The notes under the pieces are model-generated. The model made no database searches. It saw only the letters and a list, made by a program, of their open reading frames with translations, and was not told where the DNA came from. The position numbers and the translations under genes were made by a program. A DNA stretch of 64,000 nt from Siphonodentalium dalli (taxonomy: Eukaryota > Mollusca > Scaphopoda > Gadilida > Siphonodentaliidae), in NCBI GenBank assembly GCA_032622095.1, contig CP136063.1, positions 12,813,814 through 12,877,813 on the forward strand, in the 5' to 3' direction. Position 1 is the stretch's first letter; every line of letters begins with the position of its first letter. Positions 6,510 to 53,417 of this stretch are shown piece by piece.

Positions 6510-7947
6510 CAGGTCTGGCACTTTTGCCAATTGCTGTATGTACGCCAATCGGCGTATATACATGTATGGACCTATATTTTTGTTATGCGTAAAAATTGGA
6601 GCGTGGAATCCGTTGTGTAGAATTGCGCCAGGTGCTCAAAGATTACCCAACAGTAAAGATGGTGAGTTGAATTAGAGAAACACACTATATAAAAGCGGTC
6701 CCAGCGTACATCTGGTACCTTTTTTTGCCATGCAAATATTTCACATGCATAATAAAAAGTTTAGTAATAAATGTATCGATATAACACAAAACTACACAAT
6801 TGCTGCTCGCATGTAGATGGACATGTTCATTGTAAACTTGGTCATAATTCTCAACAGCAGCCATTTGTAAAAATACATACCGCATTGAATAAATGCACGG
6901 GCACATAATTCACCCTTGATAAGAAAGATTATGATGTATGGAAACCTGAAATGACAAAAAAATTAACTCTCGTTAGCAAAACAAGAAATGCAGCTAAAAA
7001 CTGCGCACATAATTTGGATTTTACTTTATAAATCATTGACCACTGGGGGGATCAAGGGGTGTGGATGGGGACTACTACTTCGGAAATTGCTCGCAATAAG
7101 ACGCACCGTCAAAAGAGCTACAGTGCCCAGTCATTAAGCTGCAGTCCACTTCAGGCAGAAACGTTGTTCACGTGCAGTTATTTTGATGACATAGATATAT
7201 AAAGAGTTCACAGAGAAGTTGAGATCAGTATTGAAGGTAATAATACAATTATATCAAAAACATTTACGCAAGCAGTGTGTTGAACATGAAAAATAAAGTT
7301 TATATGAACATATTGTCTTTGCTTACAACACAGTCACTGGACATAAACAGCTTATCTGGATAATTAATTGACTAAATACAAGCCCTAGTGGTGGATTTTG
7401 GTTTAGCTAGGGACGCGGATGGTGGTGCTATTCCAAAGACAAGCCCCAGTGGTGGAGCCTGGATTAGCGAGGGACGCGGAGGGTGGTGCTATTCCAAAGA
7501 CAAGCCCCAGTAGTGGAGTCTGGATTAGCTAGGGACGCGGAGGGTGGTGCTATTCCAAAGACAAGCCCCAGTGGTGGAGTCTGGATTAGCTAGGGACGCG
7601 GAGGGTGGTGCTATTCCAAAGACAAGCCCCAGTGGTGGAGTCTGGATTAGCTAGGGACGCGGAGGGTGGTGCTATTCCAAAGACAAGCCCCAGTGGTGGA
7701 GTCTGGATTAGCTAGGGACGCGGAGTGTGGTGCTATTCCAAAGACAAGCCCCAGTGGTGGAGTCTGGATTAGCTAGGGACGCGGAGGGTGGTGCTATTCC
7801 AAAGACAAGCCCCAGTGGTGGAGTCTGGATTAGCTAGGAACGCGGAGGGGTGGTGCTATTCCAAAAAGACAAGCGATGTGGTGGAGTCTGCATTAGCTAG
7901 GAACGCGGAGGGGTGGTGCTATTCCAAAAGACAAGCGATGTGTTTTG
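6510..7947 (+). mobile_element. Left-end fragment of the 9.1 kb TIR element
   Basis: From CAGGTCTGGCACTTTTGC at 6,510 the sequence matches the left end of the element at 40,176 almost base for base through the terminal repeat, the AT-rich leader and the 61 bp tandem array. The match stops at 7,947, just after gacaagcgatgtgttttg. Beyond that point the large element continues into its first gene, while this copy enters the unrelated ~160 bp repeat. No genes and no right terminal repeat are present, so the copy is truncated and presumably immobile alone. It has fewer 61 bp units than the full copy and an extra ~18 bp near 7,156. Confidence 0.85.
7377..7947 (+). repeat. 61 bp tandem array (left subterminal repeat, truncated copy)
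   Basis: About nine contiguous 61 bp units, each starting gacaagccccagtggtgg and ending gtggtgctattccaaa. The last units are degenerate (gacaagcgatgtg variant). Units abut without spacers. Confidence 0.9.
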
Positions 7948-18742: not shown

Positions 18743-18814
18743 CTAAGTAAAATAACATGTGCAAATAGTAATTGGTACGAAATAAAACTAGTTGGGTATG
18801 CTATAAACTGTTCT

Positions 18815-21908: not shown

Positions 21909-22187
21909 ATTATTAAGGTTTGATACCAGGAATTTTCCGGAAAATTACAAAGCGGGCACTATCAGTTAGAAAACATTAATCAATCGAACGCTGATTTTAG
22001 CCCTAAAAATGCACTTCATTGAGTATTTTTCGAAATCAGTATAACTATTAGAGCTCGTGTTGTAGCTACGACATATGGAATCTTTATTTTAACATAATGA
22101 TGATTAGTAATGCCATAAAGCCATAACTTGTCATAGCTAGTTCGAGTTTTCGGTTTATGGTTATTTTAAGCGGATAACGATGAATGA

Positions 22188-26100: not shown

Positions 26101-26261
26101 ATATGTAAGACTGAATTGGAGTTTCTAGTGCCCCTGTCAGTCATCTGGGTTAACCTGATTGGGGCTAAGAAGTGCATAGTTTGGGTTATTGACAAGTATT
26201 ATACAGTTATTTTTAAACATACTGAAAAAAAAAGTTTAAAAAAAAAGGTAAGCCTACCTAC

Positions 26262-27214
26262 TAGTCCAGACGCCAGGATTTTTTTTTTAGATTCTGTTCA
26301 ACCGGCCACCAAGAAAATTTCCGCCTATTGCCTGTTGTGGGGAACTACATTGTGGTTGATGTAAGGGTGGATATAATTTCTGAAAGTGTTGCAAATTTTT
26401 TTTATTCATGGTTTTTGATTGAATAAAGCTTAAAATAACCATAAACTGATATTTCAAACTACAGATGACACTTTATGTCATATTGGCATTATTTCCATTT
26501 AAAATGTTAGGAATAGAGATATTATTTCACATCGCCATACAAGATTTTGGAAAATAAATACTATTTTCGAAAAATAAATTATTTAAGTGCGTTTTTTGGG
26601 CAAATATTTGCTTTCGTTTCAATTTATTTCTGAAACTGATAGCACACAGCTTGTAATTTCGCTAGTTAAATCCGAATGTTAAGGCGTAATAATTTTCTAC
26701 GACAAACTGGGAAGTCAAATTGCCAGAAAAAAACTCTGGATAATGCCTTGAATGACTATTTTTTGTAAAAAATATAAACCTCCCCCCTAAAATTAGAAAA
26801 TTGTCATTTTTGGCAGTTTTGATCATAAGACGCTTGTTATGTAATATCACAATGGAAATACACCAGTACCCGATCTTACCGTTGTCACAATGTCAACGGA
26901 GGGTCAAATTAGTACCGAGTTGTAGCTTTAAGCTAAACCTAGTGATTGCATATAAATATTCAAGACGGCATCCATCATTCAATAAGTGAAATCAGACCAT
27001 ACGGATGTGATCATATTATATTTAGTTGCAGGACATAAAGCTCAAGTTTGAACCACTTCTGAATGTCTAAAAGTTCATACAGCAACTGAAAAAGTTAACT
27101 GCCATAGTTTTGTAAGGTGATATAATCCTGAGTTGTAAGAATTTACATTCACAACAAGCACTGAAATGGCAATATAATCATTTTGTTTTTTGGGAAAAAT
27201 TTAATTTTTCGCCA
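26262..27214 (+). repeat. Left terminal inverted repeat, copy B
   Basis: Starts TAGTCCAGACGCC and ends tttttcgcca. Nearly identical to the left arm of copy A. Confidence 0.85.
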
Positions 27215-27286
27215 CTAAGTAAAATAACATGTGCAAATAGTAATTGGTACGAAATAAAACTAGTTGGGTATGCTATAAACTGTTCT

Positions 27287-30200
27287 CATCGCTCACTTCT
27301 CCGTCACTCGTACAGTTATTGTCACACATTTATTGATCGCAGCCACTTGCATCGGTGCATTGAACATCCTCTTTCCTACAACGTCAACGTCATGTACTGC
27401 AATCGGACTTGCACTTGCATATGTTGAGTTCGAGAACGACAGTCGGAGCTGGAGCGAGTGACATCATCTCCGGAACAAGGTGCCCATTATAATTATTAAG
27501 TATCCAGCCATTTGGGTCGTGGTAATGTCAGCAACAACATTGGGAAAAGAGCATGAGTCCATATATACGTTCGATAGTTAACGCGTTTTGGGTGGGAATT
27601 GAATGAGTCCATGGTCGGTGGCAGTTTGTCCCTTCTCGCGTTCTTCGTAGCGCAAGTCATCCAGGGATGTCGAATCACGGTTGGAATAAACAAAAGAAAC
27701 AAGAGACACAAATGTTTCCCTCATATGGTTCGGAATGCGAGTCGGGTCCTCCCCCGTCTGCGTAAACTCCGGGATCAGTTCTGGGTGATCTTTCAATGTT
27801 CTGAACCATTTCAATTTCCTAATAGAACTGAATGCGTTTGTCGAATCGCATCCGCTCAATTCATGAACTGCTGGAATAATCAGTGACATGTCCTTGCCCA
27901 CAACCTTTGCAAATCATGTACTGGGATATATCGACGTCGTTTGCCATTACCAGTTAGGAAGAATAACTCGTATACCCAGTAGTACACAAAACATTGGGCA
28001 CATCGCCAGAACGTCTGAGTCACCACTCCAAACAATGAATATTTCAACTTGCAGTTCACATGCTGCATGCCCCATGTGTACGAACATTCTTGAGTCAAGT
28101 TTATTCGCGTTCGGACTCAAGATACCCAGACCAACCGCAACCATCCTTTGATAAAAACATTACTTTCTTTGAATCTGGAAATCCACCCGCAAGAAACACT
28201 TGCTGGCCATGCGACAATAACAATGGTATCTTTAGGGACCAATTATTGGATAAGAAGTTGACCATGTTTATTTTGTGAAGTTCTGTTCGAGTCATGCATT
28301 CCATTCATTTCCAAAGTTTGCAACGCAACTGAGGATTTTGAATGGGGCGTGATATAGAATCGGTTTAGAGCTGCAGACTGGCAACACAAATCCCAATATT
28401 TACCACAGTCCATATTTATGGATTGTTTTATGGCCATAACATGCCAAACTTCAGAGAAAGACTGGCATGTGTCTTTCGGAAAAACGACAAATGCTATATG
28501 CAGTTTCTTCTCGAACATTAGTCTCGGCTCCGCTACATTGACTATGGCCCCACCGGGCGTAGTTTACATGTTTACACATGAAATCCAGGGGAATCATTTC
28601 TGCTGGTGTCCCAATTTCATACAACACATTATCATGGTCAATTGGATGCGGCGGTTCAATGTGTTCTTCATTGCAACTATGCCAGTCTAAAACGACTTCC
28701 ACCTCAACTGTCCAAATGTTTTGTTCATCAGCTTATGCAAACGAAATCCACGGTTATACGATTTTCCGCATACAATCCGGTTTAAATTGGCGCCACCATG
28801 CACCCAGCTTCTATAACAATGTCTTCGAAGCCACTTCATAGCTCTGTACATCCCTACCATCGTCGTTATCAAATTCATCAGGGTTCCTCCATTCAATCAT
28901 ATGAGCCTTGCAGTATGTTGCTTCGTCGTATGCTACATAAGACCAATTATGTCCTAGAGTCCTGAACAAATTCTGAAATCGTTTCGTCGTTGTAAATACT
29001 GTTTCAAAATCAGTCGCTGAACCAGGAACCATCGGACAACATCCAATGTTAGTCTTCGTCACGTTCATTCGATTAGTGACACTAGCATGATATACACTCC
29101 AGCCAGGAACATATCCCCGATTTACCTCTCTCAAAATGTACATCGAATAACTTAGTCGGTATTGTGTAAGAGAACATAGCTTTTGTCTCATGTATGCATG
29201 TTCTTTGGATCACACGTTGAACCAACGGATGCGCATTTTCCAGTTAGATGCACTGGGCCCTGGTTGGCGTTCATCCTTCTTTGGAATCACACCGAAGCAA
29301 ACCTACTGAGATCAGCTGCCTGATAGCACACCATATTCACCACGTCGTGGTTATATCCACCTACAGATGCTGTCGCTGCCCCATATGTCATATTGGTTGG
29401 CACTGTCAATCCGTCTCTCTCAATTTGTTCAAAACATGTGTAGTACTGGACGTTAACTGCAGTTCCTTGAGGATAGCCCTGGTGTTTGATGCGACATTGA
29501 TGGCATTCTGTATATTAAGGGATTTACTGATCGCGAGTTCAGGTTTAGTCCGTGATTTATCAATAAAACACACTTTGTCAGAGTAATTCAGTTCAATCTT
29601 TTCCTTCAGTTTCTGTGTAGTGTAGACCTTGCTACACTTCGGTTTGCCTATTTGTCGTAATATGTCCAGGAACTTTGATAGTAGATGATCCATATCATAT
29701 GTGACACCTTTTTCAAAGTCCGGGAGAATACACCCATCAAATGTTCCAGTGCAACACCGTGTGGGGTAATCGTGTTACTGGAGGTGGTGGTCTCCAGCAG
29801 ATATTTACTATGACACAACCTGTGATGTCTTGCCTCAAGTGCTATCAACTTCGAAAAGTCAAACCAAACACGCCGTTGCATCATGTCATCCTCCTTTTCC
29901 TTCGCACATCGTTCGGTAATTTCGCAAGATGTAAATGTACTGACCCGAACTAATGTCTTTACTCCCAAGTGAGACAACTTTGAGCATATAAGACATCTAG
30001 TTTTGAAGTCGAAATATTCTCTTGTAACTTGTGGATTTGTCTGATCAGCAGTCGTGGATGTGGGCTGTTTGACTAATCTGAGATCCGAAGAACTTGTGAA
30101 ACTGGAGATTGGAGAAACAACTCTTATGCAAACTTATGTTGATATCTTTAAGGTCAATTCCATATTCTTCATATGATGATCGACGAACACCCAGAGCAAC

Positions 30201-30380
30201 TGAAAACGATTCCAAACAAGAATCGGAAGCTTTTCGCAGATTCTCGTCTTTTAATTTCTGACATACTAAACACCGTTTGAAATTCAACGAAAGTTTACAC
30301 TTTTTGGCAACGGGTATTAATTTGAGAGCACTCGTCTCCATTTCAATTGAGTCACTGTAATCTCCAGTTAAATGCAGCAA
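27287..30380 (-). pseudogene. Broken PIN/XPG-like transposon gene, copy B
   Basis: Same series of minus-strand blocks as copy A, 8,472 bp later: N-terminal Cys block at 30,380-30,045, ALEARHHRLCH at 29,977-29,648, CFIDKSRTKPEL at 29,693-29,406, IEWRNPDEF at 29,191-28,811, IVWSGDSDVLAM at about 28,144-27,947 and HELSGCDSTNAF at 27,901-27,578. Frameshifts fall at the same places as in copy A, so the gene was already dead when the unit duplicated. Few residues differ (for example SCEITER here against SCETTER, and FFGSQ against FFGTQ). Confidence 0.7.
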
Positions 30381-30659
30381 ATTATTAAGGTTTGATACCA
30401 GGAATTTTCCGGAAAATTACAAAGCAGGCACTATCAGTTAGAAAACATTAATCAATCGAACGCTGATTTTAGCCCTAAAAATGCACTTCATTGAGTATTT
30501 TTCGAAATCAGTATAACTATTAGAGCTCGTGTTGTAGCTACGACATATGGAATCTTTATTTTAACATAATGATGATTAGTAATGCCATAAAGCCATAACT
30601 TGTCATAGCTAGTTCGAGTTTTCGGTTTATGGTTATTTTAAGCGGATAACGATGAATGA

Positions 30660-31611
30660 TGGCGAAAAATAACTTTTTCACACAACAAAATAATATTGCC
30701 AGTTAAGTGCTTGTACATGTAAATTCCTATAACTCAGGATTATATTACTTTACGAAACTATGAAAGTTAACTTTTTTCAGTTGCTGTATGAACTTCTAGA
30801 CATACAAAAGTTGTTCAAACTTGGGTTTTAAGTCCTGCAACTAAATATAAATTGATCACATCCGTGTGGTCTGATTTCGCTTATTGGATGTAGAAGCCGT
30901 CTTTAATATTTATATGTAATCCAAAGGTTTGGTTTAAAGCTACATCTCGGTACTAACTTGACCCTCCGGTGACATTGTGAACACGGTAATATCGGGTACG
31001 GGTGTATTTCCATTGTAATATTACAGAACAAGCGTCTTTTTAACGAAACTGCAAAAAATGACAATTTTTCTAATTTTAGGGGGGAGGGTTATATTTTTTA
31101 CAAACAATAATCATTAGAGGCACTATCTGAAGTTTGTATCTGGCAATTTGACTTCCCAGTTCATTGTAGAAATTTATTATGCTTTGACACAAGGAATTCA
31201 TTATGGAGATTACAAGCTGTGTGCCATCAGTTTCAGAAATTAATTGAAACGAAAGCAAATATTTGCCAAAAAAAACCCTTAAATATTTTTTTTCGAAAAT
31301 AGTATTTATTTTCCAAAATCTTGTGTGGCGATGTGGAATAATATATCTATTACTAAGACTTTGAAGGAAAATAATGCCAAAATGACATAAACTGTCATCT
31401 GTAGTTTGAGTTTTCAGTTTATGGTAATTTTAGGCTTAATTCAATTAAAAACCATGAATAGAAAAAAATTGCAACACTTTCAGAAATTACATCCACCCTT
31501 GCATGGACCACACTGTAGTCCCCCACAACAGGCAACACGTGGAAATTTTCTTGGTGACCGGTTGAACTAACTCCTAAAATAGAGCCCTTTTCAGACTTGG
31601 CGTCTGGACTA
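30660..31611 (-). repeat. Right terminal inverted repeat, copy B
   Basis: Reverse-complement partner of 26,262-27,214; ends ggcgtctggacta. Confidence 0.85.
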
Positions 31612-33284
31612 TACCTACCCTAATTTGTTTTCAGCTCATTAGCGGAAATAAATGTATTTTTTTTTTAGGCCTAGTCATAGTAAATTGTTTTGGAATCACA
31701 AATTTAATTATGGGCAGAGCCTGGTTGAAGTGCTATTTTGTGGCGAGTCATACTCGTCTTCGAGCTACTGATGCCATGTTATAATGTATGCATGGTGCTA
31801 TTAACGGTTTGTATATTGAAATGGTGAAATTGCTCGTAACCCTCTTTGTAACATTTCACACCAGGTTCTGTTCACAAATCAAATTCAACAATTGATTCCA
31901 ATGTAATTTATTTTCATACAAAATATTTTGGAACTAGAATTTCTTGATCACATGTCAAATTACATGCTCTCGAGATAAAAGGAATATCATAAATAGGCTG
32001 TACATATGTCCATTAATTTTCAGCAAAACATCCACCCTGTATTAACTATGATCCTTATTTGGGTGTGTACTATGTTTATTTAATTTCACTCACCAGCCTC
32101 ACCTGCAAGATGTGCCCTCAGATCATCTCAGGACCAAGTGTATGGGACTCATAATGGAAGTGTACAAGTTTCTGTCAAAACTTGGCCAAATCACTTGTCA
32201 GTCTTGTCTGATTATGACTCTGCATGTGGATTGTGAAAAGCATGAACATAATCCATCCGGCCCACACTATTATTTAGATCTGTACTTTTATTCAATTTGG
32301 GGAATTATTCCACCCCATGGTAGTAGTTGGTACCATACTATTATCTGGTGTTTGTATATTTGTGTGTGATGTAATGACATGTAATATATGTAATATATCA
32401 TAATATCATTCCCAGACAACTGTGGTATATGTTGGAATTATGGACACCACTTTGTCAGCAGTTAATATATAATGGAACTTCATTTCTGCCTAAATGGATT
32501 ATATACCGGTATGAGTACGGATATGCCCTATATTTTAGGCTATAAACTACAACAAACATGAAGTTCCAGGCACCACGACCATATGCACAGTGGGAATAAC
32601 TGTAGGGCCTATACTTATATTGTATCACCTGCTTGTGTCTTATATTTGACCTATATATGCCTACATTTATATATGCTGAACAGTTTATTATCTTGCAGTA
32701 TTTAGCATCAGTGCCTTAGACCAAATACATCGTGTACATGTATCATCTTATTTGACGAATTCATCCGTGTAGATACTAATGATACAAGCTGTGAAGCTAG
32801 CATGCTGTGAATATGTTCGTTATTTATATGTACTACATGTATATATGTTTCATTAAAACCACCCACCCAAGTTGACTCAACATGTATATATAGCCCACGT
32901 ACATGTATAACCACACACAAGTCGATCGCAGCCATACCGGCCACCGCGTAATCATGCATACATACCAGGTATATGTAAGTGTGGAAATATGTGTATATAC
33001 CCAAACACAGCAAAGGCCACACCTGTCATTTCCAGATAACATGGATGGTTTTGATACTTTATTACAATAATACAAGTCACATTGTTTATGCCTACATTGG
33101 ATAATCACCCAAAACGTATAGCAAGGAAGGGGTACATCGCTTATTATCAATGGGGGAAATGCAGTAACGCTATGACGTTATATTCCACGATCCCACCAGA
33201 AACATGGCGGCCCGGCTCCAGTCGGATTTCATAGCGTCATGACGTAAGTCAACCTTCCCTTTGTTTACGTTCCCTGGCGCGAGC

Positions 33285-33870
33285 TACAGGTCATAGCTTT
33301 GGTCGGATCTTCATGAAATTTGTCATGGATGTTAACAATTACATTTAGATGGGAACGAGTCCTTTTGGGGTCATTCGGCCAAAAACATGGCCGCCAACAG
33401 CCATCTTGGGTTTTTCTCTTTGCAATGACTAAATCCTTTGGCACAGGTTACAGATCGTACCTTTGGTCAGATAAATATGAAATTTGTCATGGCTATTGAC
33501 ATTGACATGTAGATGCGAACGAGTCATTTTGGGGTCGTTTGACCAAAAACATGGCCGCCAGCGGTCATCTTGGATTTCATAATTCAATCCATTAGCACGG
33601 GCTACAGGTCGTATCTTTTGTCGGATCTTCATTAAAATTGTCATGGATGTTAAAATTGACATGTAGATGGGAAACGAGCCATCTTGTATTTTACTCTTTA
33701 GACGACTAAATCCTTTGACACAGGCTACAGGTCGTATCTTTTGTCGGATCATCATGAAATTTGTGATGGATGTTAACAATGACATGTAAATGGGAAGGAG
33801 TCTTTTTGGTTCATTTGGCAAATAAAACATGGCTGTCGTGGCCATCTTGGATTTTAATCTTTGCATAACT
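33285..33870. repeat. ~160 bp tandem repeat block after unit 3
   Basis: Four diverged units (atgaaatttgtcat-type phrase near 33,313, 33,477, 33,632 and 33,755). The 150-codon minus frame at 33,429-33,881 is a by-product of the repeat, since the period keeps the frame open. Confidence 0.75.
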
Positions 33871-37288: not shown

Positions 37289-39174
<1,886 letters not shown>

Positions 39175-40170: not shown

Positions 40171-40175
40171 TTATA

Positions 40176-40229
40176 CAGGTCTGGCACTTTTGCCAATTGC
40201 TGTATGTACGCCAATCGGCGTATATACCT
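40176..40229 (+). repeat. Left 54 bp terminal inverted repeat
   Basis: Identical to the reverse complement of 49,213-49,266. The inner half contains the palindrome ACGCCAATCGGCGT. Confidence 0.9.
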
Positions 40230-41025
40230 GTATGGACCTATATTTTTGTTATGCGTAAAAATTGGAGCGTGGAAACCGTTGTGTAGAATTGCGCCAGGTG
40301 CTCAAAGATTACCCAACAGTCAAGATGGTGAGTTGAATTAGAGAAACACACTATATAAAAGCGGTCCCAGCGTACATCTGGTACCTTTTTTTGCCATGCA
40401 AATATTTCACATGCATAATAAAAAGTTTAGTAATAAATGTATCGATATAACACAAAACTACACAATTGCTTCTCGCATGTAGATGGAAATGTTCATTTGT
40501 AAACTTGGTCATAATTCTCAACAGCAGCCATTTGTAAAAATACATACCGCATTGAATAAATGCACGCGCACAGAATGCACCCTTGATAAGAAAGATTATG
40601 ATGTATGGAAACCTGAAATGACAAAAAAATTAACTCTCGTTAGCAAAACAAGAAATGCAGCTAAAAACTGCGCACGGAATTTGGATTTTACTTTATAAAT
40701 CATTGACCACTGGGGGGATCAAGGGGTGTGGATGGGGACTGCTACTTCAGAAATTGCTCGCAATAAGACGCACCGTCAAAAACGCTACAGTGCCCAGTCA
40801 TTAAGCTACAGTCCACTTCACGTGAAGTTATTTTGATGACATAGATATATAAAGAGTTCACAGAGAAGTTGAGATCAGTATTGAAGGTAATAATACAATT
40901 ATATCAAAACTATTTACGCAAGCAGTGTGTTGAACATGAAAAATAAAGTTTATATGAACATATTGTCTTTGCTTACAACACAGTCACTGGACATAAACAG
41001 CTTATCTGGAGAATGAATTGACTAA

Positions 41026-41717
41026 ACACAAGCCCTAGTGGTGGATTTTGGTTTAGATAGGGACGTGGAGGGTGCTGCTATTCCAAAGACAAGCCCCAGT
41101 GGTGGAGTCTGGATTAGCTAGGGACGCGGAGGGTGGTGCTATTCCAAAGACAAGCCCCAGTGGTGGAGTCTGGATTAGCTAGGGACGCGTAGGGTGGTGC
41201 TATTCCAAAGACAAGCCCCAGTGGTGGAGTCTAGATTAGCTAGGGACGCGGAGGGTGGTGCTATTCCAAAGACAAGCCCCAGTGGCGGAGTCTGGATTAG
41301 CTAGGGACGCGGAGGGTGGTGCTATTCCAAAGACAAGCCCCGGTGGTGGAGTCTGGATTAGCTAGGGACGCGGAGGGTGGTGCTATTCCAAAGACAAGCC
41401 CCAGTGGTGGAGTCTGGATTAGCTAGGGACGCGGAGGGTGGTGCTATTCCAAAGACAAGCCCCAGTGGTGGAGTCTGGATTAGCTAGGGACGCGGAGGGT
41501 GGTGCTATTCCAAAGACAAGCCCCAGTGGTGGAGTCTGGATTAGCTAGGGACGCGGAGGGTGGTGCTATTCCAAAGACAAGCCCCGGTGGTGGAGTCTGG
41601 ATTAGCTAGGGACGCGGAGGGTGGTGCTATTCCAAAGACAAGCCCCGGTGGTGGAGTCTGGATTAGCTAGGAACGCGGAGGGGTGGTGCTATTCAAAAAG
41701 ACAAGCGATGTGTTTTG
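41026..41717 (+). repeat. 61 bp subterminal tandem array (left)
   Basis: Eleven abutting units starting gacaagccccagtggtgg. The first (acaagccctag) and last (aagcgatgtg) are divergent in the same way as in the copy at 7.4-7.9 kb. No spacers. Confidence 0.9.
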
Positions 41718-41793
41718 TTTACTTTCCAATGACAAATAACTTCTTAAAAAATGGTAACAACTCTAGGCAAAAGTAACATTCATTTAATTACAG

Positions 41794-44186
41794 GGCAGAC
41801 GAGGGAAACAAGCATACAACCCAGGCCGAAATTTTCCAAACCAGCCGTGTACTGCCAATGTACATCACACAGGCCCCATACCAAATGAGTATGTTGAGGA
41901 CAGCAAGGCACGAGCCAAGTCGCACCATTCAAGACGGACAACACTTTTTCAAGGGGTGAGATGTTAAACCGTTATCGTTACATTATCATTGATGCTACGT
42001 ATATTGGTGCTGATTGTCGTGTAGTGCTATAATAAAAACGTTTTCGGTTGTAATATACATACCGCATGCCAGTATTGCAGCCATGTCCTGTGATGCCGTC
42101 TGCCTCAATATGTTAATAGAATCCACCAATTCGGTGTGGAACTCCACCATAACCGCTTTTCTGTCGAGACGGATCCCGCTCAACCACCTGGCGTTAAAGG
42201 ACTCAGACTCTTGTTGGTAACCAGCGGCACCTAAGGACTGGATAGCAGATGTTATCTCTCGACTCAGGTCGACTTTCTTCAGTGACAGTAGTCTTTCTTT
42301 TTCGTTTTGCTCGAAAACTGTGATAGGAAGCAATCGTGATGTGTATGATATGGAGTTCGTTTTGATACAGGTATCGATGTAATGTATAATATTTTGCTGT
42401 GAGGAACGGTGGAAATCGAGTAGTGATGGATTAAGTTCTTTCCCTGATAAAGTGGTATGCAATGAAGATTTCTGAGGATTGTCCAGGTAATGAGAATTTC
42501 GAAGAGTCTGTCGCCATCGGAAAATTTCCCTTCCCAAGTCTGTCCTACGAATTCGTGTCGTCTTTCGTTGCGGTGGGTTGACCATCACTGGTTGAGTTGG
42601 ATCGTCGTCTTCCGAGTCTTGGGAATCATCGGTATCATCATCACTCAGATCATACTGAGTGTCAGTATGAATGCCACCGACAACGGTGTGGTGCAGCTGA
42701 AATAAAAGAAATTTATCTATATTTTCAGTGTTACGATATCGCCATCAAAACAGGCGCACAGGTGTTCATAATAGTTTCGTCAGAGTCCGGATACACTGTC
42801 CATGCAGGGACAGATCATTTTCTGGATTTGTTTAAGGTAAGAACAAAATGTCACACCAACTTGCATCCATACTCTATGGAACGCAACAAAATCAACATTC
42901 ATTACTGATATTTACACTCAATCGAGTCAACTGGCAGATTAAAAGAGTTTTAAGCGTCTATTTCCAACGTTATTATCGTGGCTCGGAGCAAGTTGCGTCT
43001 ACAATAAAATGGATGCAAGTTGGGGTCAGCGCGCGACGTCATGTGACGTAATTTCGACCAACCAACATCCTGCTTTCATGTTCCACAACGCGAATGCATG
43101 TTTGAGTGTAAATATAATTCTATGGTGCCGTTTTATATTTTCCAGGAAGTTATCCCAGAATACAGCAGCGTGAACTCAATTCCAGTTGGCGTCCCACTGG
43201 AAACAGGCAATTTGGAGACTACTGACAGCACGGCGACGACATCCCAGACGACCAACATGACGACAACCGACGCGACTACTGACAGCACGGCGACGACATC
43301 CCAGACGACCAACATGACGACAACCGACGCGACTACTGACAGCACGGCAACGACATCCCAGACGACCAACATGACGACAACCGACGCGACTACTGACAGC
43401 ACGGCGACGACATCCCAGACGACCAACATGACGACAACCGACGCAACTACTGACAGCACGGCGACGACATCCCAGACGACCAACATGACGACAACCGACG
43501 CGACTACTGACAGCACGGCGACGACATCCCAGACGACCAACATGACGACAACCGACGCGACTACTGACAGCACGGCGACGACATCCCAGACGACCAACAT
43601 GACGACAACCGACGCGACTATAGACAGCACGACAACGACAACCGACAGCACGACGACAACCCACACGACCGATGACATACTGACTATGGCGACTGTGACA
43701 GTAACGACGAGCGAGACTTTGGACGAGATGGTATCGACTGCGACGATGACTGGACGTACAGGCACGACGGAAACAACTGATGACATTGTGACGGCCAACA
43801 CTAGTGGTATCATCCTAAGTCCGTCGGCCAACTTGAGGAGAGTGGCTGACAGTAAGATTCAGGCTCCTACGGGCCTGATTGGCATTTCCTCCTGTAGGAT
43901 GTGCAACCTGAACTATGCATCAGAGGAAGATCTCGAACTAAATAGCTGGTGGGTAGGTTGCGATGAGGCAACGTGTGACTATTGGGCTCACGCGGTGTGC
44001 GTCGGTATAAGCTGCGACGAGGAGGTGTACGATGGCAATTTCAAGTGTGCGGAACATTCTGAGCCCACTTCGAGTAAGCGGAAGTGCCCCAGCTCAGGAA
44101 GAGGTCGTGGTCGTGGTCGAGGGCGCGGTTCCGGTAGTAAAAAACCGCGTGGGTGTGGGCGTGGTTCAAAACGCGGAGTATGTTGA
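41794..44186 (+). CDS. Spliced gene: MADS/SRF-like segment + Thr-rich repeats + PHD finger
   Basis: Three exons read in phase. Exon 41,794-41,955 follows tttaattacag and ends before gtgaga. Exon 42,729-42,836 (36 codons) follows atattttcag and ends before gtaaga. Exon 43,146-44,186 follows tattttccag. The second exon reads CYDIAIKTGAQVFIIVSSES…, close to the AYELSTLTGTQVLLLVASET part of the SRF MADS box. The end of the first exon (SRRTTLFQ) resembles the RRYTTFSK stretch before it, but the basic KRKTGIMKK helix start is absent. The last exon has seven 19-residue repeats (TTDSTATTSQTTNMTTTDA), a PHD-type finger (CRMC…WVGCDEATCDYWAHAVC…FKCAEH) and an RG-repeat basic tail. A nuclear chromatin or DNA-binding role is inferred. 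The first coding exon with the ATG was not found. Confidence 0.65.
42063..42696 (-). CDS. Acidic-N-terminus protein nested antisense in the first intron of the MADS/PHD gene
   Basis: A minus-strand exon begins at 42,696 after a good acceptor (cttttatttcag) and stays open to 41,995. A donor at 42,062 (GCG before GTATGT) suggests the exon ends at 42,063. The product opens with an acidic run (DLSDDDTDDSQDSEDDD), then a basic patch (QRKTTRIRR), then about 170 mixed, probably helical residues (LGREIFRWRQTL, FNARWLSGIRLDRKAVM, VEFHTELVDSINILRQ). I do not recognise the family. It lies wholly inside the plus-strand intron 41,956-42,728. The neighbouring exons on either side are unknown, so the real start and stop may lie elsewhere in the element. 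Confidence 0.5.
43219..43620 (+). repeat. 57 bp coding minisatellite (seven units)
   Basis: Seven near-identical 57 bp units inside the PHD gene encode a 19-residue Thr/Ser-rich repeat. The length is a multiple of three, so unit gain or loss keeps the frame. The long hydrophobic and Arg/Cys minus frames here are shadows. Confidence 0.9.
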
Positions 44187-45263
44187 ATATGATTACATGT
44201 ATTGTTAATGTTATCCTATTTCCAATAATAATAATTATGTTTTCACGACATAATATGTAGTTACACTCTGACTCAATTGTATTATTTGCCATTCCATGTA
44301 ATCAGGTGAGATAAACGATGAAGTCAGAAGTGTCAGAAATCGGTGCATGTTATATGGTTGGTCCAATTAAAAAAACGGTTAGTAAATTTGACATGTTAGT
44401 ATGTTGGTCAGAAGTTTGGAGATACTGAAATGACATGAGGTGTACTCATACACATAGGAGGAACTCTGGCTAAATAACAACAAGAAACAAGGTCCATGTT
44501 TGGCAAATATTATACTCTCACCCACCATGGAGGTTTAATGATAACTCCATAAAACTTAATAAAGGAGGTATAATAATAACTCCTGATATACCCCTCCCCA
44601 ATACCAGAGGACGTATAAAATAACCTCATTATGCACTGGAGGTTTAATGATAACTCCAAATAACCGATACAAAAGGGTCCTAATTGCGTCAAAATGACTT
44701 GAATGCGCCATTATGATTAATCGGCCACTAATGTAAACCATGTCTTCTCGAACAACAGCCTCTTGGGATATCGGTTGGGATGATGCTGCTGAAACAGCAT
44801 CATCACAACCGATACCCTAAGATGTTTTGGGCTGAGAAGGCTTGGTCTGCCACTAATGGTGATATAACTGAATGCAAAGATAATTAATGTTGTGCTGCAA
44901 CGTTTATTTTTCGGTTTTGTCAGCTGTTTATGATTCCACTCCCGGAATAGTTGTCGATATAACTTTTTTACACACAATATCGTCCCCAGTGATGTGGCGA
45001 AGTTCTGACACTATGTATATCATTTATGATTATAATTTTCGTTATCTTCTCCCAATTCAATCGCGCACTTGTATTCGGTGCTGTCAACATTATGTGCCAA
45101 TGGATATTTAACAGGATTAAGACACATCGTAAATTAAGTTTTTGTTCTGTGAACGTCATCAACCTGGAATTTGTCTGGTTGCGTCGTGTGTTAGTCAAAA
45201 TTACCCAAAGTGACCGATATTACACTGCATGATAGATGATTATGTATGTTAATGTGATCTCAA
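44187..45263. other. Intergenic space between the convergent genes
   Basis: Separates the stop of the PHD gene from the stop of the DUF6589-like gene. It contains the phrase ggaggt-taat-ataactcc three times (44,530-44,660) and the hairpin at 44,761-44,822. No gene. Confidence 0.6.
44761..44822. repeat. 28 bp-arm hairpin between convergent genes
   Basis: Left arm tcttgggatatcggttgg… (44,761-44,788) pairs at 25 of 28 positions with 44,795-44,822 around the six-base loop ctgaaa. Weaker pairing extends about 25-30 bp further out. It could be a transcription or RNA-processing signal, a small-RNA hairpin or a relic palindrome. Confidence 0.7.
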
Positions 45264-47402
45264 TTATTGCGGTAACCGATGATTGGTGCATGATGATTTG
45301 TGTTGTGCGTGCAGATCCGTGAATTTAGGCTCTGTTACTATATTTACCGACTGAAGGAGGTCGACCGATCTAGTGGCTCTCAACCAACGCCTTTCATTCG
45401 GCAGTCCGGGCGGGAGACACATCTTGACTCTGCGATTTTTACTCTCCAAGATGAAGTCACCTCCTTCGTGTTGAGACGCGTTGCCCGACATGGTCATTGT
45501 TGTATGTCTCTTCAGGAAATCGGCGACTTTGGGTGGTGCTTGGAGATTTAGTAGCCGATCTCTCATTATGATTTCCTGGTAGTGTGGCATATTGAGGGAA
45601 TAAACCAGCGGGGCAAATTTTGCGTGTGCAGAGTCCATGGCATGGTGGTTATTGCGGCGGACTGCTGCTCTATATAGATGTAGTGCGAAGGTGTATACAA
45701 AAACAGCATCCGCCATAAAGATATAGTTTCTACTCTTCACAGTCTGCAGCCATTTGAAGTATCCCTCCAGTGTTGGACGCACGTCTCTCTGTTTGCATTG
45801 GCGGCAGTATGGCAACAAGAGCTCGTCCGTCGTACCCTCTAACAGAATCTGAACCATTTGCCAGCCTTTATGATGATCGTATACGGCTTGACAACATGCG
45901 AGGGCTTTAGGTGATGTGAACCCGAGCATCTTCGCCATATCCACAAGCACGACATCCCACAGCAACCTGAACAAACCTTTAACCATGTTCATTTCCATGT
46001 GCCCGACGCCCGGCAGTGGTAGTAGATTGCCGAACGTCCTGTGCTGCAATGCAGATGTGCTGTCGGCTGTCGTCTTGTGCTCTGCTTTCATGTGGATGAT
46101 GAAGTTGTTTATGCCACGAATTTCTGATGTACATCTCGGGCACGTGAAGGTACTCTCTATAAGTTTACATACCAACAGATATGGACAGCCATCGCAGCCA
46201 ACAATAGTCCAATTCCGTTCTTGCAAACTTATGTCCTGCAGATGTTTGAGAACTTTGTTGGTCGACTGAAACGAACACGGGTTCGTCATCATTGGGTCGC
46301 TGAGCTGTGCAGATGGTGGGGTGGTTGGATGTATCGAAGGCACGAAGGCGTATGGATCGATGGCGGATGAGGGTGAGGGGAAATGAGGTTTCCCCTTAGC
46401 GTCGAAAGTCACCTGTTTGCTAGCCGAAGGAAGCTGCCTGGCTTCAGTTAGAACCTGCGCAGTGTCAGCGTCCACGTCGTCTATCAGCACATCGTGTTCT
46501 ACCCGTAAGCTGTTGAACACCTTGGAAAGCCGTTCCGTAATATAGATGTTGCGGTAATTCCGGAATACTTCCGGATGTCCATTGTAGAGGGATAGAGGTG
46601 TTGCGTTGGTGGAGTTCAACCATCCCACAGGTGACAAAGTTGGCTGCATCTGCAAATCCATTGCTGGGTCTGGAATCAGGTGTAATATGTTGGTGGTTAC
46701 ACTGAGCTGCGGCTTTGCATCAGCAACCATCCGCCAACGTCTGCAAATGACTTGGTTGTTGTCGAAAAAAGTTACTATATCACTACTTTCTGGACATCCT
46801 AATGCAATCTCCGATCGGGCGTTGAACCAATTCAAGACGGTGGTATAGCCTGGTGACGGATGTACAGCTGAGTTCAGATTACAGACTGTCTTACTAGATG
46901 TTATGAAGTAGCTGATTAACGCGATGGTATACGATAAGCGTCCTACGTGGTGTAAATTTCTGCAATGATATATCTCTTCAATGGCCATCATTAGCGACTT
47001 TAGTTTTTTCTCGTTCACACAATTGTCCACGTTAATACCCGACGCACCTTCGAGGAATTTTACCAATACTTTGTTGGAATTTGATATCCATGACTTTGGT
47101 GACTGGCCTTTCCATGTCTCAAGGTCCATTGTACAACAGCTTCTGCTAACAGATTCTTGGAAAATCTCTCTGCTTATGGCATTGCCTATGGCTGTTGAAA
47201 TGTGTGCAAGCTCATCATTGGTATACATATCTCGGTTGATAGCATTGACAATACTGTCGACATCGGGGTATTGCTCAGTATCTGTTATCGGTCCGGGAAT
47301 TTCATTAGTGGAGGGTATCACCGGTATTAATATGTCCGTAGCATACTGGCTACATGCTGTGCAGATATTCCCTCTCTTAGCAGTTGTCTTAGTTAGAAGG
47401 TA
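45264..47402 (-). CDS. DUF6589-like protein, probable transposition-associated protein
   Basis: One uninterrupted minus frame of about 710 codons; a 685-residue part starts at a GTG (47,321), so the true start is upstream. A likely first exon has ATG at 47,536-47,534 just after ttttttacag and begins MPKRKQKLECSC. Numbering from 47,321, motifs are: TFFDNNQVICRRW (184-196), GCDGCPYLLVC (375-385), a C2H2-like knuckle CPRC…HMKAEH (394-415), LPLPGVGHMEMNM (434-446), DHHKGWQMVQILLEGTTDE (482-500), AKFAPLVYSLNMPHYQEI (567-584) and GEGGDFILE then LPPGLPNERRW (619-646). I recall this motif series as the DUF6589-type family, multicopy in cnidarians and molluscs and suspected of transposon origin. Its place between perfect TIRs makes it the best transposase candidate here; catalytic residues are not established. 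Confidence 0.7.
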   Translation of the reverse strand, partial: YLLTKTTAKRGNICTACSQYATDILIPVIPSTNEIPGPITDTEQYPDVDSIVNAINRDMYTNDELAHISTAIGNAISREIFQESVSRSCCTMDLETWKGQSPKSWISNSNKVLVKFLEGASGINVDNCVNEKKLKSLMMAIEEIYHCRNLHHVGRLSYTIALISYFITSSKTVCNLNSAVHPSPGYTTVLNWFNARSEIALGCPESSDIVTFFDNNQVICRRWRMVADAKPQLSVTTNILHLIPDPAMDLQMQPTLSPVGWLNSTNATPLSLYNGHPEVFRNYRNIYITERLSKVFNSLRVEHDVLIDDVDADTAQVLTEARQLPSASKQVTFDAKGKPHFPSPSSAIDPYAFVPSIHPTTPPSAQLSDPMMTNPCSFQSTNKVLKHLQDISLQERNWTIVGCDGCPYLLVCKLIESTFTCPRCTSEIRGINNFIIHMKAEHKTTADSTSALQHRTFGNLLPLPGVGHMEMNMVKGLFRLLWDVVLVDMAKMLGFTSPKALACCQAVYDHHKGWQMVQILLEGTTDELLLPYCRQCKQRDVRPTLEGYFKWLQTVKSRNYIFMADAVFVYTFALHLYRAAVRRNNHHAMDSAHAKFAPLVYSLNMPHYQEIIMRDRLLNLQAPPKVADFLKRHTTMTMSGNASQHEGGDFILESKNRRVKMCLPPGLPNERRWLRATRSVDLLQSVNIVTEPKFTDLHAQHKSSCTNHRLPQ

Positions 47403-47759
47403 TTAGTTTGCAAGGTAGTTATTATTGATTGACGGATTCGCTTTGCAGCTATCGTTTCCACCTTATACTCTTTGCCTGCTGCTATTTGGGTGTGTTGCAG
47501 ACAGCTGCACTCCAGCTTCTGCTTTCTTTTCGGCATTGTGTTCTGTAAAAAAATATTGTTTTTGAGCTTTGTGTCACCTGCGCAACGCTACGGTCATATC
47601 TTACAACCGGGTATATGTACGTCATGGTTCCTTTGTTGCTACATGATTTTGGAACAAGTGTTGCTTGCATTGATCAATGCCGCTCTCAAACTATATCAGG
47701 GTATTGGTAATTCAAATACCTAATCAAGGGAATATGCGTGCCCACTTAACTAGGCGAAG

Positions 47760-48745
47760 TTGTGCAAGGTAATCGGCGTATATATACTCCGACTGGGGGT
47801 TGTCGAAATTGAATTTGATACGTGTACATATCAATTGTATACACGGCGAACGATGTATATACGCCGATTGACGTATTTACTTCGACTGAGAGAGTTGTCG
47901 CACTTGAATTTGAGACGTGTAGATATCAATTGTATATACAGCGATCGAGGTATATACGCCGATTGATTATATGCTCCGACTGAGAGAGTTGTCGCACTTG
48001 AATTTGAGACGTGTAGATATCAATTGTATATACGGCGATCGAGGTATATACGCCGATTGATTATATGCTCCGACTGAGAGAGTTGTCGCACTTGAATTTG
48101 AGACGTGTAGATATCAATTGTATATACGGCGATCGAGGTATATACGCCGATTGATTATATGCTCCGACTGAGAGAGTTGTCGCACTTGAATTTGAGACGT
48201 GTAGATATCAATTGTATATACGGCGATCGAGGTATATACGCCGATTGATTATATGCTCCGACTGAGAGAGTTGTCGCACTTGAATTTGAGACGTGTAGAT
48301 ATCAATTGTATATACGGCGATCGAGGTATATACGGCGATTGACTATATGATTAGACTGGGAGAGTTGTCCGACTTGAATTTGCTACTTGTGGAGTCTATC
48401 AATTGCATATATATACGGCGATCGAGGTATATACGGCGATTGACTATATGATTAGACTGGGAGAGTTGTCCGACTTGAATTTGCTACTTGTAGAGTCTAT
48501 CAATTGCATATATAGGGGCCTATACGGCGATCGAGGTATATACGGCGATTGACTATATGATTAGACTGGGAGAGTTGTCCGACTTGAATTTGCTACTTGT
48601 AGAGTCTATCAATTGCATATATATACGGCGATCGAGGTATATACGGTGATTGACTATATGATTAGACTGGGAGAGTTGTCCGACTTGAATTTGCGACTTG
48701 CAGATATCAATTGTATACGGCGATCGAGGTATATACGCCGATTGG
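47760..48745. repeat. 94-106 bp subterminal tandem array (right)
   Basis: About ten units. Four to five proximal ones have a 94 bp period (cgatcgaggtatatacgcc…); four to five distal ones are about 100-106 bp (…tatacggcgattgactat). Every unit contains ggtatatacgccgattg or a one-base variant. That phrase is also the inner part of the terminal inverted repeat, suggesting iterated binding sites. Confidence 0.9.
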
Positions 48746-49212
48746 GGAATGTATCGGGCTTGAAATTGAGAAATTGACCTATGTTTTTGTCGAATCGGCT
48801 TTCCGTACGTTGAGAAAACCTACTGTGTAAGCAATTTACTTAATAAAACATTTTCCTACCTGTTTTGGCCAATCAACGACGAGTCTCTTATTCACTGCTG
48901 GTTACAGCTATGGCCGCTTCTTGCTGAGCTGCTGTCAAGATGCTCTTTGGAATCTGTCAATTTGGTAATAATAACGTTTTATCACACATTCGGGTCAGCG
49001 TGCATATGAAAACACCTTGTCAACGAACAGTCGATTCACTTCGCCGCATGAAAGTTCCCTTTTTCCCTACGTATTTTGCGTCTAGTTGTGATTATGAACC
49101 TGCACACTAAGCCTCGAACTAGACGACGTGTTGCGGAAATTCATGGTTATTGCAAATTTCCCATAAAACTGAGCTGATATGTGATGCGTCTATCAATTTT
49201 ATATGTCGATAG
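48746..49212. other. Spacer between the right array and the right TIR
   Basis: No gene. Ends with gtcgatagaggtatat, which leads into the terminal repeat. Confidence 0.5.
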
Positions 49213-49266
49213 AGGTATATACGCCGATTGGCGTACATACAGCAATTGGCAAAAGTGCCAGACCTG
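49213..49266 (-). repeat. Right 54 bp terminal inverted repeat
   Basis: Reverse complement of 40,176-40,229 with no mismatch. Followed by TTATA at 49,267-49,271. Confidence 0.9.
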
Positions 49267-49399
49267 TTATAAGTGAATTATTCAAGGCATTTGAATAATT
49301 TACGATAAACACTGAGTGTCAACAAGACTAACGATGTACACTACTCGAACGCTAATTGTCAACTGAAAAGCGCGGCAAATAAGCTTACATGTGATTGGC

Positions 49400-50428: not shown

Positions 50429-53341
50429 TTATTCATCCAAGATAGTTTTCAAAATAGACTGAAAAACATCTGGAGAAACCTTGGTGCAAATCTGATCTTG
50501 CATCAGCTTACGAAAAAGCTGATTCTTATACTCATCTTTTCCATCTGGAATGGGCTGAATGGTATTAGATACATAGTCACCCATCCATGATGGAGGCTTC
50601 TTTGCTCTGCTAGATTTCCTAGGTACTGGTTTTGGTATGGATTCTGAAAGAGAAATTATTTCTCTATCTCCACTCTGACTACTACTCGAGGCACCATCAT
50701 CACCTGAAACATTCGCTTTCGCACCATCAACAACAACAGTATCTTCTGCAATAGGTGCTAAAGGTACACGGGTAATATCAACAACTTCATCATTATTCTC
50801 ATCAGCCTCATCGTTGCTATCACCTGTGGAATGAAGTTCAAGCTGACCTGTCGAATCCTGTGTAGCTGAAATATCAACAATATTACTGTCATCACCGACA
50901 TCAGTTCTAACTTCCCTGAACTCATCTATTTGAGTGCGGTCGTCACCACAGGAAGAATAAATACCACCAGCTTCCAATCTCGCAGGAAAGTCGTCACCCC
51001 GACGAGATGGAGCTGAAATGTCCACTGCATTAGGAGCAGATTTAATACCTGCAACGCTCTGTGGAACAAAACAAATTACCGACTCTTCATCTGAACCATC
51101 TATATGGTCTGAACCATTAATCACGAACTTCATCACGTGAAGTATCACTACCAGTACCTGGAATATGACGTTTCCGCACCTTAGGCTCCGGTGGCCGTAC
51201 AGGTGGGATAAGAGGATATACAATTGGGGCATCAGCATCTCTCTGTTCAAGAGAAGATTTAAGGGCTGTGTCGTCAACTGAAAAGTCAAAGGGTAAAGAA
51301 CCAATAGGCAACAAGTGGTTCCTATGTAAAGTTCTTTGCTTTCCGCTGTCATCTTCTAAATTAAAAACAGAATGTCAGAATTGGGTTGAGATTTAACAGT
51401 ATAAACTTCAGAATCATATGTATCTGCCAACTTATGTCTGCCTTCAAAAGCTAATGTCTTTACTAAGACTCTGTCACCTACATGTATAGTTGCACCACGA
51501 AGCTTTCGATTATAATATTTGGCATTTCCACTCTGAGCACCAGACATAGATTTGGATGCTAATCTGTAAGAATCAGAAAGTCTCTGTCTAAGGTCTGAAA
51601 CATAATCACAATAAGTTTGATCAGAATCAGGTTTATTCGGACCAAAATAAAACATCAAGAGGTAACCGTGGTTCTCTTCCGAACATCAACCGAAAGGGAG
51701 CAAAACCAGTAGTTTCATGCCTAGTGCAATTGTAAGCATGAACAAGAGGACCTATGTGAGATTTCCAATCATGTTTCTGGTCAGGATTAAGAGTACCTAA
51801 CATACTAATAAGTGTGCGATTAAATCGCTCTGTAACACCATTCCCCATCGGATGATAAGGAGTAGTTCGGGACTCCTTGATGCTGCAAAGCTGGCAAAGT
51901 TCAGAAATAAGTTGAGATTCAAAATTAGCACATTGGTCACTATGAATACGTTGAGGATAACCATAATGAATAAAGTAATTGTTAAACAATACATCAGCAG
52001 TAGTCTGTGCAGTCATGTTCCTTGTAGGATAAGCCTGTGCATATTTAGTAAAATGATCTTTCATAACAAGAACATATTGATAACCACCTTTAGAACAATC
52101 AAGAGTAAGAAAATCAATACAAACAAGTTCAAGAGGTTGAGAAGTAGTAATGGATACCAAAGGGGCTCTGCAATTCGGATTAGTTTTCACTCGAAGACAT
52201 CTATGACAATGTTTTATCCAATCATCGACAGCACTGTCAATACCTGGAAAATAAACTCTTTCTTTCACAAGTGAAACTGTTCTGTCACGACCTGGATGTC
52301 CTATATCATTATGTAATTATTTAAGAACAAAATAAATCTATGAATGTGGTAAAACAAGCTGAGTGGTGGTTTTACCATTAAAAGTGGACTCTCTATAAAG
52401 AACTCCTCGCTGCAACCTAAGCTTAGAAAAATGTCTTAAAAATGCTGAATGAAGCTTAGACGGGGGAAGGGACTTTCTCTTTGGGCAACTATTTCTTCTT
52501 ACGACTGACAACCATACGGACAATACATCATCTCTTTCCTGCAATCTTCTCCAATCCTTATAATTCATTTCATCAAGATCATGACCTACATCATCTTGAA
52601 CAGAATTTAAAACATCAGTGCTGCAACATAAACTTTCAACAAAAGGTTGTTGAACCTGTAATGAATTACAAATAACTTGCACTGAATCATTTGTAATAAT
52701 ATCTGGAGGAGGTGTAACCAACCTGGATAAGGCATCTGCATCGGTATTAGATTTACCGGGTCTGTAAACAATATCAAATTTAAAAGAACCTAAGGCTGAT
52801 AACCATCTCTGTCCAGTGGCATTTAATTTGGCTGAAGTTAAAACATAAGTTAAAGGATTGTTATCAGTATACACTACAAAATAATTACCATATAAATAGT
52901 CATAAACTTCTCTGTAACTGCCCACTTTAAAGCTAAACATTCTAACTTATGTGCCAGGTAATTCTTTTCTGCTGCTGTGGTTCCTCGGCTGCCATAATCA
53001 ATAACTCTCCTTACGCCATCCTCTTGGTAAAGGACACAATCTAAACCATGGCGGGACGCATCAGTATGGACTTCAAAGGGCCTATTGTAATCAGGGTAAC
53101 CTAAAATGGGGGGATTAGAAAGACGATCTTTCAAAGTATCAAATGCAGACTGCTGCTCATGCTCCCATTTCCCTGTAAAAGAGGATTTAACCTTGTTCTT
53201 TGGCTTCTTTGAGTTTGTAGGGGGAAGTAAATCTGTCAAGAGCTTAGCAATCCTGGAAAAATTTGGACAATATTTTCTATAATAACCTGCAAAGCCAAGA
53301 AATGATCGCAACTGATCAGAGTTCTTGGGAACTGGGTGCAT
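50429..53341 (-). pseudogene. Ty3/gypsy-type pol, 5'-truncated: RT end, RNase H, integrase
   Basis: Minus-strand order: end of RT (LRSFLGFAGYYRKYCPNF, about 53,315-53,260), RNase H with VHTDASRHG, LECLALKW, VVYTDNNPLTY and ADALSR (53,060-52,735), integrase zinc region (LHNDIGHPG then CHRC), integrase core with CIDFLTLD, HSDQCANFES and NGVTERFNRT as D, D, E (about 52,160-51,800), then GDRVLVK-type and SRAKKPPSW C-terminal pieces down to 50,429. Frames shift near 52,900, 51,650, 51,355 and 51,115, and a stop lies near 52,318, so it is dead. Protease, most of RT and any gag are missing: the copy ends at about 53,331 where transposon-remnant sequence begins. Confidence 0.85.
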
Positions 53342-53417
53342 GGTGGCGCCACTTTAAGTCGTATAACCGTGGAGTTCGTTTGCATAAGCTGATGAACAAA
53401 ACATTTGGACAGTTGAG

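Follow-up and report, generated by a model that had tools for sequence, protein, structure and literature searches.

What carries a 9.1 kb unit with perfectly matching ends from place to place in a scaphopod genome, and does its enzyme belong to any described group of transposases? The question is raised by positions 40176-49266 of a 64,000-nucleotide stretch of Siphonodentalium dalli (GenBank assembly GCA_032622095.1, contig CP136063.1, positions 12,813,814 to 12,877,813 of the forward strand), which we call the window and whose numbering we use. The unit is very probably a copy of a cut-and-paste transposon family with a DUF6589-like transposase, in a superfamily that we could match to none described so far. 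The best reading of the protein and terminus comparisons would be a new superfamily of DNA transposons, set apart by Pfam, the Protein Data Bank (PDB) and published definitions, with Repbase and Dfam outside the comparison.

The terminal inverted repeats (TIRs) of the element are exact reverse complements over 54 bp, TTATA stands on both flanks and subterminal arrays lie at both ends (Table 1), all as the original prediction had described. With up to three mismatches allowed, the window holds three occurrences of the initial 19 bp of the end, against 0.00 expected from 100 shuffles. The third occurrence, at 6510, is the left end of a truncated second copy, which had been overlooked together with its 61 bp array (6510-7947); no right end of this copy was found within the window. 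The inner-TIR 16-mer CAATCGGCGTATATAC has 34 matches in the window with up to three mismatches (0.54 expected), 28 of them in 47770-48744, four in the two TIRs and two at 6536-6561 in the truncated copy. The right subterminal array, with units of 94 bp and 101 bp at 47781-48744, is built from this inner TIR motif. A chance inverted repeat was ruled out by the 19 bp shuffle test, by paired ends across the genome and by 5 bp duplications. A mere satellite array was also ruled out, as the arrays sit within the element and TIR motifs are iterated in the right-hand array. A viral origin was rejected as well, a viral contig scan having returned 58 pattern matches, none of them a relative.

The host assembly comprises 2.227 Gb in nine contigs. 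A 101 bp end query, for which 40 of 49 candidates were scored, gave at least 40 matches in it. Paired ends of this window family lie 7.6-9.1 kb apart, and one copy spans 21.6 kb, enclosing other DNA. Ten paired copies were compared for target-site duplications (TSDs), and four small relatives in which one clear end is wanting (L044-L046 and L050) were excluded from the count. Exact 5 bp duplications of varying sequence flank six of the ten pairs. L036 and L037, which are 1.6 kb non-autonomous deletion derivatives at two places with a common right flank, agree at four of the five bases; L038 has no clear duplication. In BLAST blocks against the window copy, L031-L034 and L039 are mostly ~92-98% identical and L035 mostly ~84-92%, and L047, a decayed relative, is near 78%. 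Unpaired or inverted window-family ends were also seen at C6:182.2-182.4 Mb and 168.5 Mb (L010, L011, L025, L027, L042, L043, L048 and L049), some with common flanks, which suggests rearranged or segmentally duplicated copies.

The insertion of the C1 copy (L031) has paralogous empty sites that carry one copy of the 5 bp. Its 60 bp flanks, joined with a single TSD, align without gaps over 120 of 120 positions at C6:69957872 (97% identity) and C3:23291153 (95%); further matches elsewhere have lower identity. The filled locus splits into query positions 1-60 and 56-120, with an overlap of exactly five bases. The joined flanks of 11 copies, compared with the fetched sequences only, gave no empty site, the one match being the copy itself. 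Paired ends with varying duplications and empty sites had been proposed as checks on the element, and both were found, the latter for the C1 copy at two places. Paired TIRs at several loci, TSDs that keep one length but vary in sequence, and the empty sites of one insertion mark the element as a class II (DNA) TIR transposon.

The same anatomy recurs in other families. The 712-amino-acid DUF6589-like frame of the window element was compared with the assembly, with 63 of 621 candidates scored, and matched at least 92 places, many of them 32-53% identical. Equal-score groups among these matches look like recent multiplication. For dissection, two copies each were fetched of the families F705 (L051 and L052) and F765 (L053 and L054). 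Over their 7380 bp, L051 and L052 share 99.8% identity, and their TIRs match perfectly for 241 bp; for L053 and L054 the identity is ~98.8% over lengths of 8.3-8.4 kb, and the perfect TIRs measure 197 bp. Both families start with CAGGTC(T/G)GGCA and end in its complement. Between families, the terminal 11 bp common to the window element and F705 form the sole notable match within the initial 250 bp, and whole-element DNA similarity between families is weak and confined to the DUF6589-like gene.

Exact TSDs flank six of seven F705 pairs (TTGGA, GTTTC, TTAAC, GTATA, ATGAA and CTCAT) and all six fetched F765 pairs (GTAAA, ATAAT, TTAAT, TTAAA, GTAAA and ATGGA). A DUF6589-like match is enclosed by six of the seven F705 pairs, the seventh being a 917 bp non-autonomous derivative, and by five of the six F765 pairs. 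The stretches L068 and L069 do not include both ends of a short derivative. The F705 end gave 1275 first-look candidates; 40 were scored, and 20 of these 40 were ~93% identical, suggesting that F705 ends are numerous in the genome; the F765 end gave 125 candidates (40 scored). For a further family, F669, no CAGGTC end was found in the 2 kb upstream of the gene (L078). This stretch matches F765 DNA near element positions 1430-1565 with 86-88% identity, and the F669 end therefore lies beyond the fetched stretch. The window family, F705 and F765 each encode a DUF6589-like protein and an antisense MADS-like/PHD-finger protein. DUF6589-like genes were thus found between CAGGTC ends with 5 bp duplications in F705 and F765 as well. 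The claim that the window copy defines the element is incomplete, since F705 and F765 share its anatomy with less damage and it does not by itself define the group.

Pooled over the three families, an exact 5 bp TSD is present in 18 of 23 paired copies, or 18 of 20 when three doubtful small ones are left aside. For the first 15 pairs (L036-L038 excluded), the chance of 13 exact duplications is ~3e-36 under a base-composition model. T stands at position 2 in all 18 exact duplications and A at position 4 in 11 of them, the orientation being unstandardised between families. A target preference N-T-N-W-N, as an oriented reading, is a lead only.

The gene content differs from the three intact genes, two of them accessory, that the original prediction had counted. 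We find two interleaved genes, the DUF6589-like gene on the minus strand and, on the plus strand, a gene with MADS-like and PHD-like parts (gene A). The open reading frame of the supposed 249-amino-acid gene (41995-42744, minus strand) includes an exon at 41995-42696 that is homologous to the C-terminal region of the Tegillarca protein P0010 (E 1e-7, single comparison). F705 has a homologous C-terminal exon on the same strand at the corresponding place, and a splice donor GTAAG/GTAAAT stands at the same position past the main exon in all three families. Three separate genes were rejected on these grounds, and the 249-amino-acid frame most likely supplies the C-terminal exon to the DUF6589-like gene. 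The assignment is weakened by the labelling of P0010 as a low-quality gene model and by the F765 candidate C-terminal exon, which had no significant match to P0010 (E 0.085). The exon at 41995-42696 had no Pfam match.

Contrary to the original prediction, the frames are not all unbroken. Relative to all six comparable copies (L031-L035 and L039), a single base is deleted near 47403 from the DUF6589-like gene of the window copy, about 45 codons from the ATG, and the 712-amino-acid frame is open downstream of this deletion. The six copies carry frame breaks of their own elsewhere in this gene. In L051 and L052 of F705, a DUF6589-like frame of 705 amino acids is open.

The ratio of nonsynonymous to synonymous substitution rates (dN/dS) between the window copy and L035 is 0.21 for the main exon, 0.28 for the C-terminal exon and 0.18 for gene A exon 3. 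The comparison with L047 gave 0.21 for the main exon and 0.20 for the C-terminal exon, and values for closer copies lay between 0 and 0.48. Differences between the window copy and L035 are concentrated at third codon positions, and in gene A exon 1 the third position also has an excess of substitutions (12 vs 6 and 2). Because dN/dS is low and the differences fall at third positions, both genes are under purifying selection between lineages. Three non-coding stretches diverge by 0.055-0.096 between L035 and the window copy, less than the dS of 0.21-0.32, possibly because CpG sites decay in the coding DNA or because the subterminal DNA is constrained.

Homologues of the DUF6589-like protein come from the bivalves Saccostrea cucullata, S. 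echinata and Tegillarca granosa; there are further homologous sequences, and three of these (P0007-P0009) are precomputed as PF20231. The Pfam family DUF6589 (PF20231) matches seven of 13 aligned relatives at E 0.1 or better, with a best value of 2.9e-8. The window-type proteins differ from it in several ways. The window protein (E 5.9e-4, 19.1 bits) and the F705 protein (E 1.3e-3, 18 bits) fall under the curated cut-off of 27 bits, the F765 protein has no DUF6589 match, and in the window-type protein a further exon lies C-terminal to the Pfam match. A profile search against transposase families had been suggested; in the Pfam scan of the 13 relatives, none of these families reached E 0.1 or better.

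Asp240 (FFDNNQ) and Asp420 (GCDG), in L051 numbering, are invariant in all 13 aligned sequences. Glu485 (PGxGHxE) is present in 12 of them, and the exception, P0010, does not have that region. The order D...D...E after strand-like stretches suggests an RNase H/DDE transposase, as a motif reading. The proposal of the original prediction that this protein is the transposase is well supported by association and purifying selection; its catalysis we infer.

The canonical Pfam DUF6589 model was also compared with the assembly, with 102 of 196 candidates scored. It gave at least 90 places, all 90 over the cut-off, and none in 14 control genomes. Because none of the 90 canonical places is among the 92 places matched by the window protein, among the matches listed, the elements described here appear to be a distinct branch of DUF6589. 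DUF6589-like relatives are common in mushrooms. That all of DUF6589 is an unrecognised transposase superfamily, in which the branch here has 5 bp TSDs, CAGGTC ends and an antisense MADS-PHD partner, an independent coupling of recombinase and PHD reader paralleling RAG1-RAG2, has in our view a slightly better than even chance; the odds are lowered by the lack of overlap between the canonical and window-type genome lists. Canonical DUF6589 genes also fall into near-equal-score groups, for example four frames of 397 amino acids on C4, C5 and C6, a pattern that additional mobile families would be expected to give.

Gene A likely encodes a MADS-box-like protein with a C-terminal finger. The putative splice product of exon 1, exon 2 and the start of exon 3 matches Pfam SRF-TF (E 3.5e-6, 26.8 bits), passing the cut-off of 26, and the joined translation matches the SRF chains 1hbx (E 8.5e-4) and 1k6o (E 1.1e-3) and MCM1 1mnm (E 0.036). 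Conserved counterparts of exon 1 occur in F705 (E 4e-6) and in two copies of F765 (E 3e-5 and 3e-4), and the exon-2-like match in F765 is weak (E 0.06-0.12). The PHD finger of exon 3 alone is weak in the window (Pfam E 0.057, 13.9 bits against a cut-off of 24). The PHD exons of F705 (E 1.5e-4, 22.2 bits) and F765 (E 7e-5, 23.2 bits), located at the place corresponding to window exon 3, are also under this cut-off. Since the scores lie under the Pfam cut-off and the Cys/His pattern is conserved across the three families in the alignment, we label the finger PHD-like. No Kelch match was found in the scanned pieces of gene A. By the predicted exon limits, each gene would hold part of the other within an intron: gene A the C-terminal transposase exon, and the transposase gene exons 2-3 of gene A. 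F705 repeats this interleaved order, as does F765 with the reservation about its C-terminal exon.

In the mechanism that we propose, the DUF6589-like protein would be the transposase, with catalysis as its motifs suggest. It would recognise the CAGGTC ends together with the iterated motifs in the TIR and the right subterminal array, cut the element out at CAGGTC and insert it into a target site, usually N-T-N-W-N, by joining staggered by 5 bp. Filling of the gap would give the 5 bp duplication. The gene A protein, with its SRF-type MADS-box-like segment and PHD finger, is probably an accessory factor which may bind the ends, tether integration to chromatin with a histone mark, or both.

It is unlikely that the family belongs to an already described superfamily, such as Academ, Ginger2 or an unclassified Repbase or Dfam entry. 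Our comparison covered Pfam, the PDB and the literature, and Repbase, Dfam and some superfamily reports lie outside it. As far as the available portions of the published definitions go, the 5 bp TSD is within the 4-5 bp of Ginger2, but an integrase-family Pfam match is absent in the 13 proteins, and the TSDs of Zisupton (8 bp), Kyakuja (7 bp), PHIS (0-4 bp), Zator (3 bp), Merlin (8 bp) and Kolobok (TTAA) do not match. Academ has a TSD of 3-4 bp and an XPG-like domain. Kolobok and Zisupton/KDZ resemble the window element as DNA transposons with accessory genes in some lineages. Kolobok differs in its TTAA duplication and its RR..YY termini, as opposed to 5 bp and CA..TG here, and Zisupton/KDZ in a TSD of 7-8 bp; protein similarity was found to neither. 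In the literature searched, DUF6589 is not mentioned, and the strings PF20231 and IPR046496 appear only in four papers unrelated by title, which we take as coincidence. CAGGTC with transposon terms led, by title, only to work on citrus miniature inverted-repeat transposable elements, and MADS or PHD with transposon terms to nothing relevant by title. Among superfamilies compared by definition, the termini and TSD length fit the CMCT clade (CACTA, Mirage, Chapaev, Transib, Plavaka, ESTA and Lanisha), for which the available part of the source gives CA..TG termini, TSDs of 2-5 bp and a signature of C(2)C and H(3-4)H between the second D and the E (PMC12730594). The element could thus be a highly diverged lineage of this clade (CACTA/EnSpm-Mirage-Chapaev-Transib), the one behind RAG1, with a PHD-bearing partner as in RAG2-carrying Transibs, which we regard as decidedly unlikely. 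The 5'-CAGG..CCTG-3' termini and 5 bp TSDs are within the stated range, and a CxxC...H(4)H pair lies between Asp420 and Glu485 in the window protein, F705, P0004 and P0009. The pair is absent from F765, P0001-P0003 and P0005-P0008, so that four of 13 sequences have it and eight lack it, P0010 being without the region. The element was kept out of CMCT because the signature is found in only four of 13 sequences, F765 is without it and sequence similarity was not found in Pfam or the PDB. The pair resembles a compact C2H2 finger (Pfam zf-C2H2 in one of 13), without the long insertion of RAG1. TransibSU, by the accessible text of its description, encodes RAG1L and a Kelch-PHD RAG2L and has 5 bp TSDs (PMC4411706). 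The window element is like Transib/TransibSU in its 5 bp TSD, CA..TG ends and PHD-bearing second gene, and by analogy the transposon may work like Transib. It differs in its CAGGTC ends, its MADS-like segment, the lack of a Kelch match in the scanned pieces of gene A and its interleaved genes on opposite strands, and neither Pfam nor the PDB gave a RAG1 or Transib match to the transposase candidate, no profile-profile comparison with Transib having been made. Transib ends begin with CAC, not CAGG. CACTA/EnSpm shares the CA..TG termini, but its TSD is 3 bp in the definition at hand, and no Pfam transposase similarity was found. En/Spm has subterminal iterated motifs, like the window element.

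The DUF6589-like gene might instead be a passenger, with the recombinase being the MADS/PHD protein or acting in trans. Its catalysis is read from motifs and gene A is likewise conserved and selected. The association leaves room for the MADS/PHD gene or an unseen gene as recombinase. Gene A has only MADS-like and PHD-like parts, however, and neither is a known nuclease; besides gene A, only the DUF6589-like protein was found to be conserved across the three families, and some of its acidic residues are invariant. A passenger role is accordingly very improbable. Further observations weigh against the main reading. In all seven long window-family copies inspected the DUF6589-like frame is broken, and the window family may be inactive. 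L034 and the F705 copy at C3:38403537 have no TSD, and the F765 pair at C3:40231184-40239585 encloses no DUF6589-like match among those listed (63 of 621 candidates scored). In the PDB, a single-sequence search found no transposase (best E 0.85), and a profile search gave no matches. In the F765 copy L054, Ala stands in place of the candidate Glu, and Glu542, also near-invariant in the 13-sequence alignment, could be an alternative third catalytic residue.

If a DUF6589-like transposase is confirmed, a branch of a Pfam family listed as of unknown function would gain one, DNA transposition, and repeats otherwise annotated as uncharacterised genes would receive an identity. One more superfamily would then stand beside the 20 with a DDD/E transposase that Repbase lists, according to the available part of the source (PMC9587614). 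The PHD-bearing partner would make chromatin-guided integration, an old question for RAG2, testable in an independent system.

Table 1. Features of the element, its truncated relative in the window and the exact duplications of its family.
Feature	Position	Strand	Remarks
Left TSD	40171..40175	none	TTATA
Left TIR	40176..40229	+	54 bp, perfect; begins CAGGTCTGGCA; recurs genome-wide
Left subterminal minisatellite	41024..41706	none	61 bp unit; recurs in the truncated copy at 7374-7936
Gene A exon 1	41794..41955	+	Start of MADS-like region; start codon not located; splice sites predicted
DUF6589-like gene, last detected exon	41995..42696	-	3' limit either at the stop codon (41995-41997) or at a donor close to 42063
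Gene A exon 2	42729..42836	+	Second half of MADS-like domain; splicing predicted
Gene A exon 3	43146..44186	+	Thr-rich 57 bp repeats at 43217-43640; C-terminal PHD-like finger at ~43893-44051
DUF6589-like gene, main exon	45348..47536	-	ATG at 47536; donor GTAAAT at 45347; putative catalytic residues are Asp of FFDNNQ and of VGCDG and Glu of GHMEMN
Right subterminal array	47770..48744	none	Iterated TIR-like motifs, candidate transposase binding sites
Right TIR	49213..49266	-	54 bp, same as left TIR
Right TSD	49267..49271	none	TTATA
Truncated second copy	6510..7947	+	Comprises just the left end with its 61 bp array; identity 95.7%
Exact TSDs of the window family			Window copy TTATA, L031 ATATA, L032 GTAAA, L033 ATAGA, L035 TTTAA, L039-L041 TTTAT

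Other repeats surround the element in the window. To its right, minus-strand frames at 50429-53353 look like a broken Gypsy-type retroelement, with integrase-like and reverse transcriptase/RNase H-like parts recognised by eye; the one frame scanned from this region, 50432-51355, had no Pfam match. To its left, a tandem duplication (14666-24921 and 23136-33393) is 99.5% identical over 10.3 kb with an offset of ~8.47 kb, and inverted repeats of ~0.9 kb and ~86% identity lie inside it. Tandem arrays of an 84 bp unit are located at 37408-38645 (14.8 units) and 62821-63925 (13.2 units). The former codes for C2H2 zinc fingers on the minus strand, and the unit of the latter is similar.

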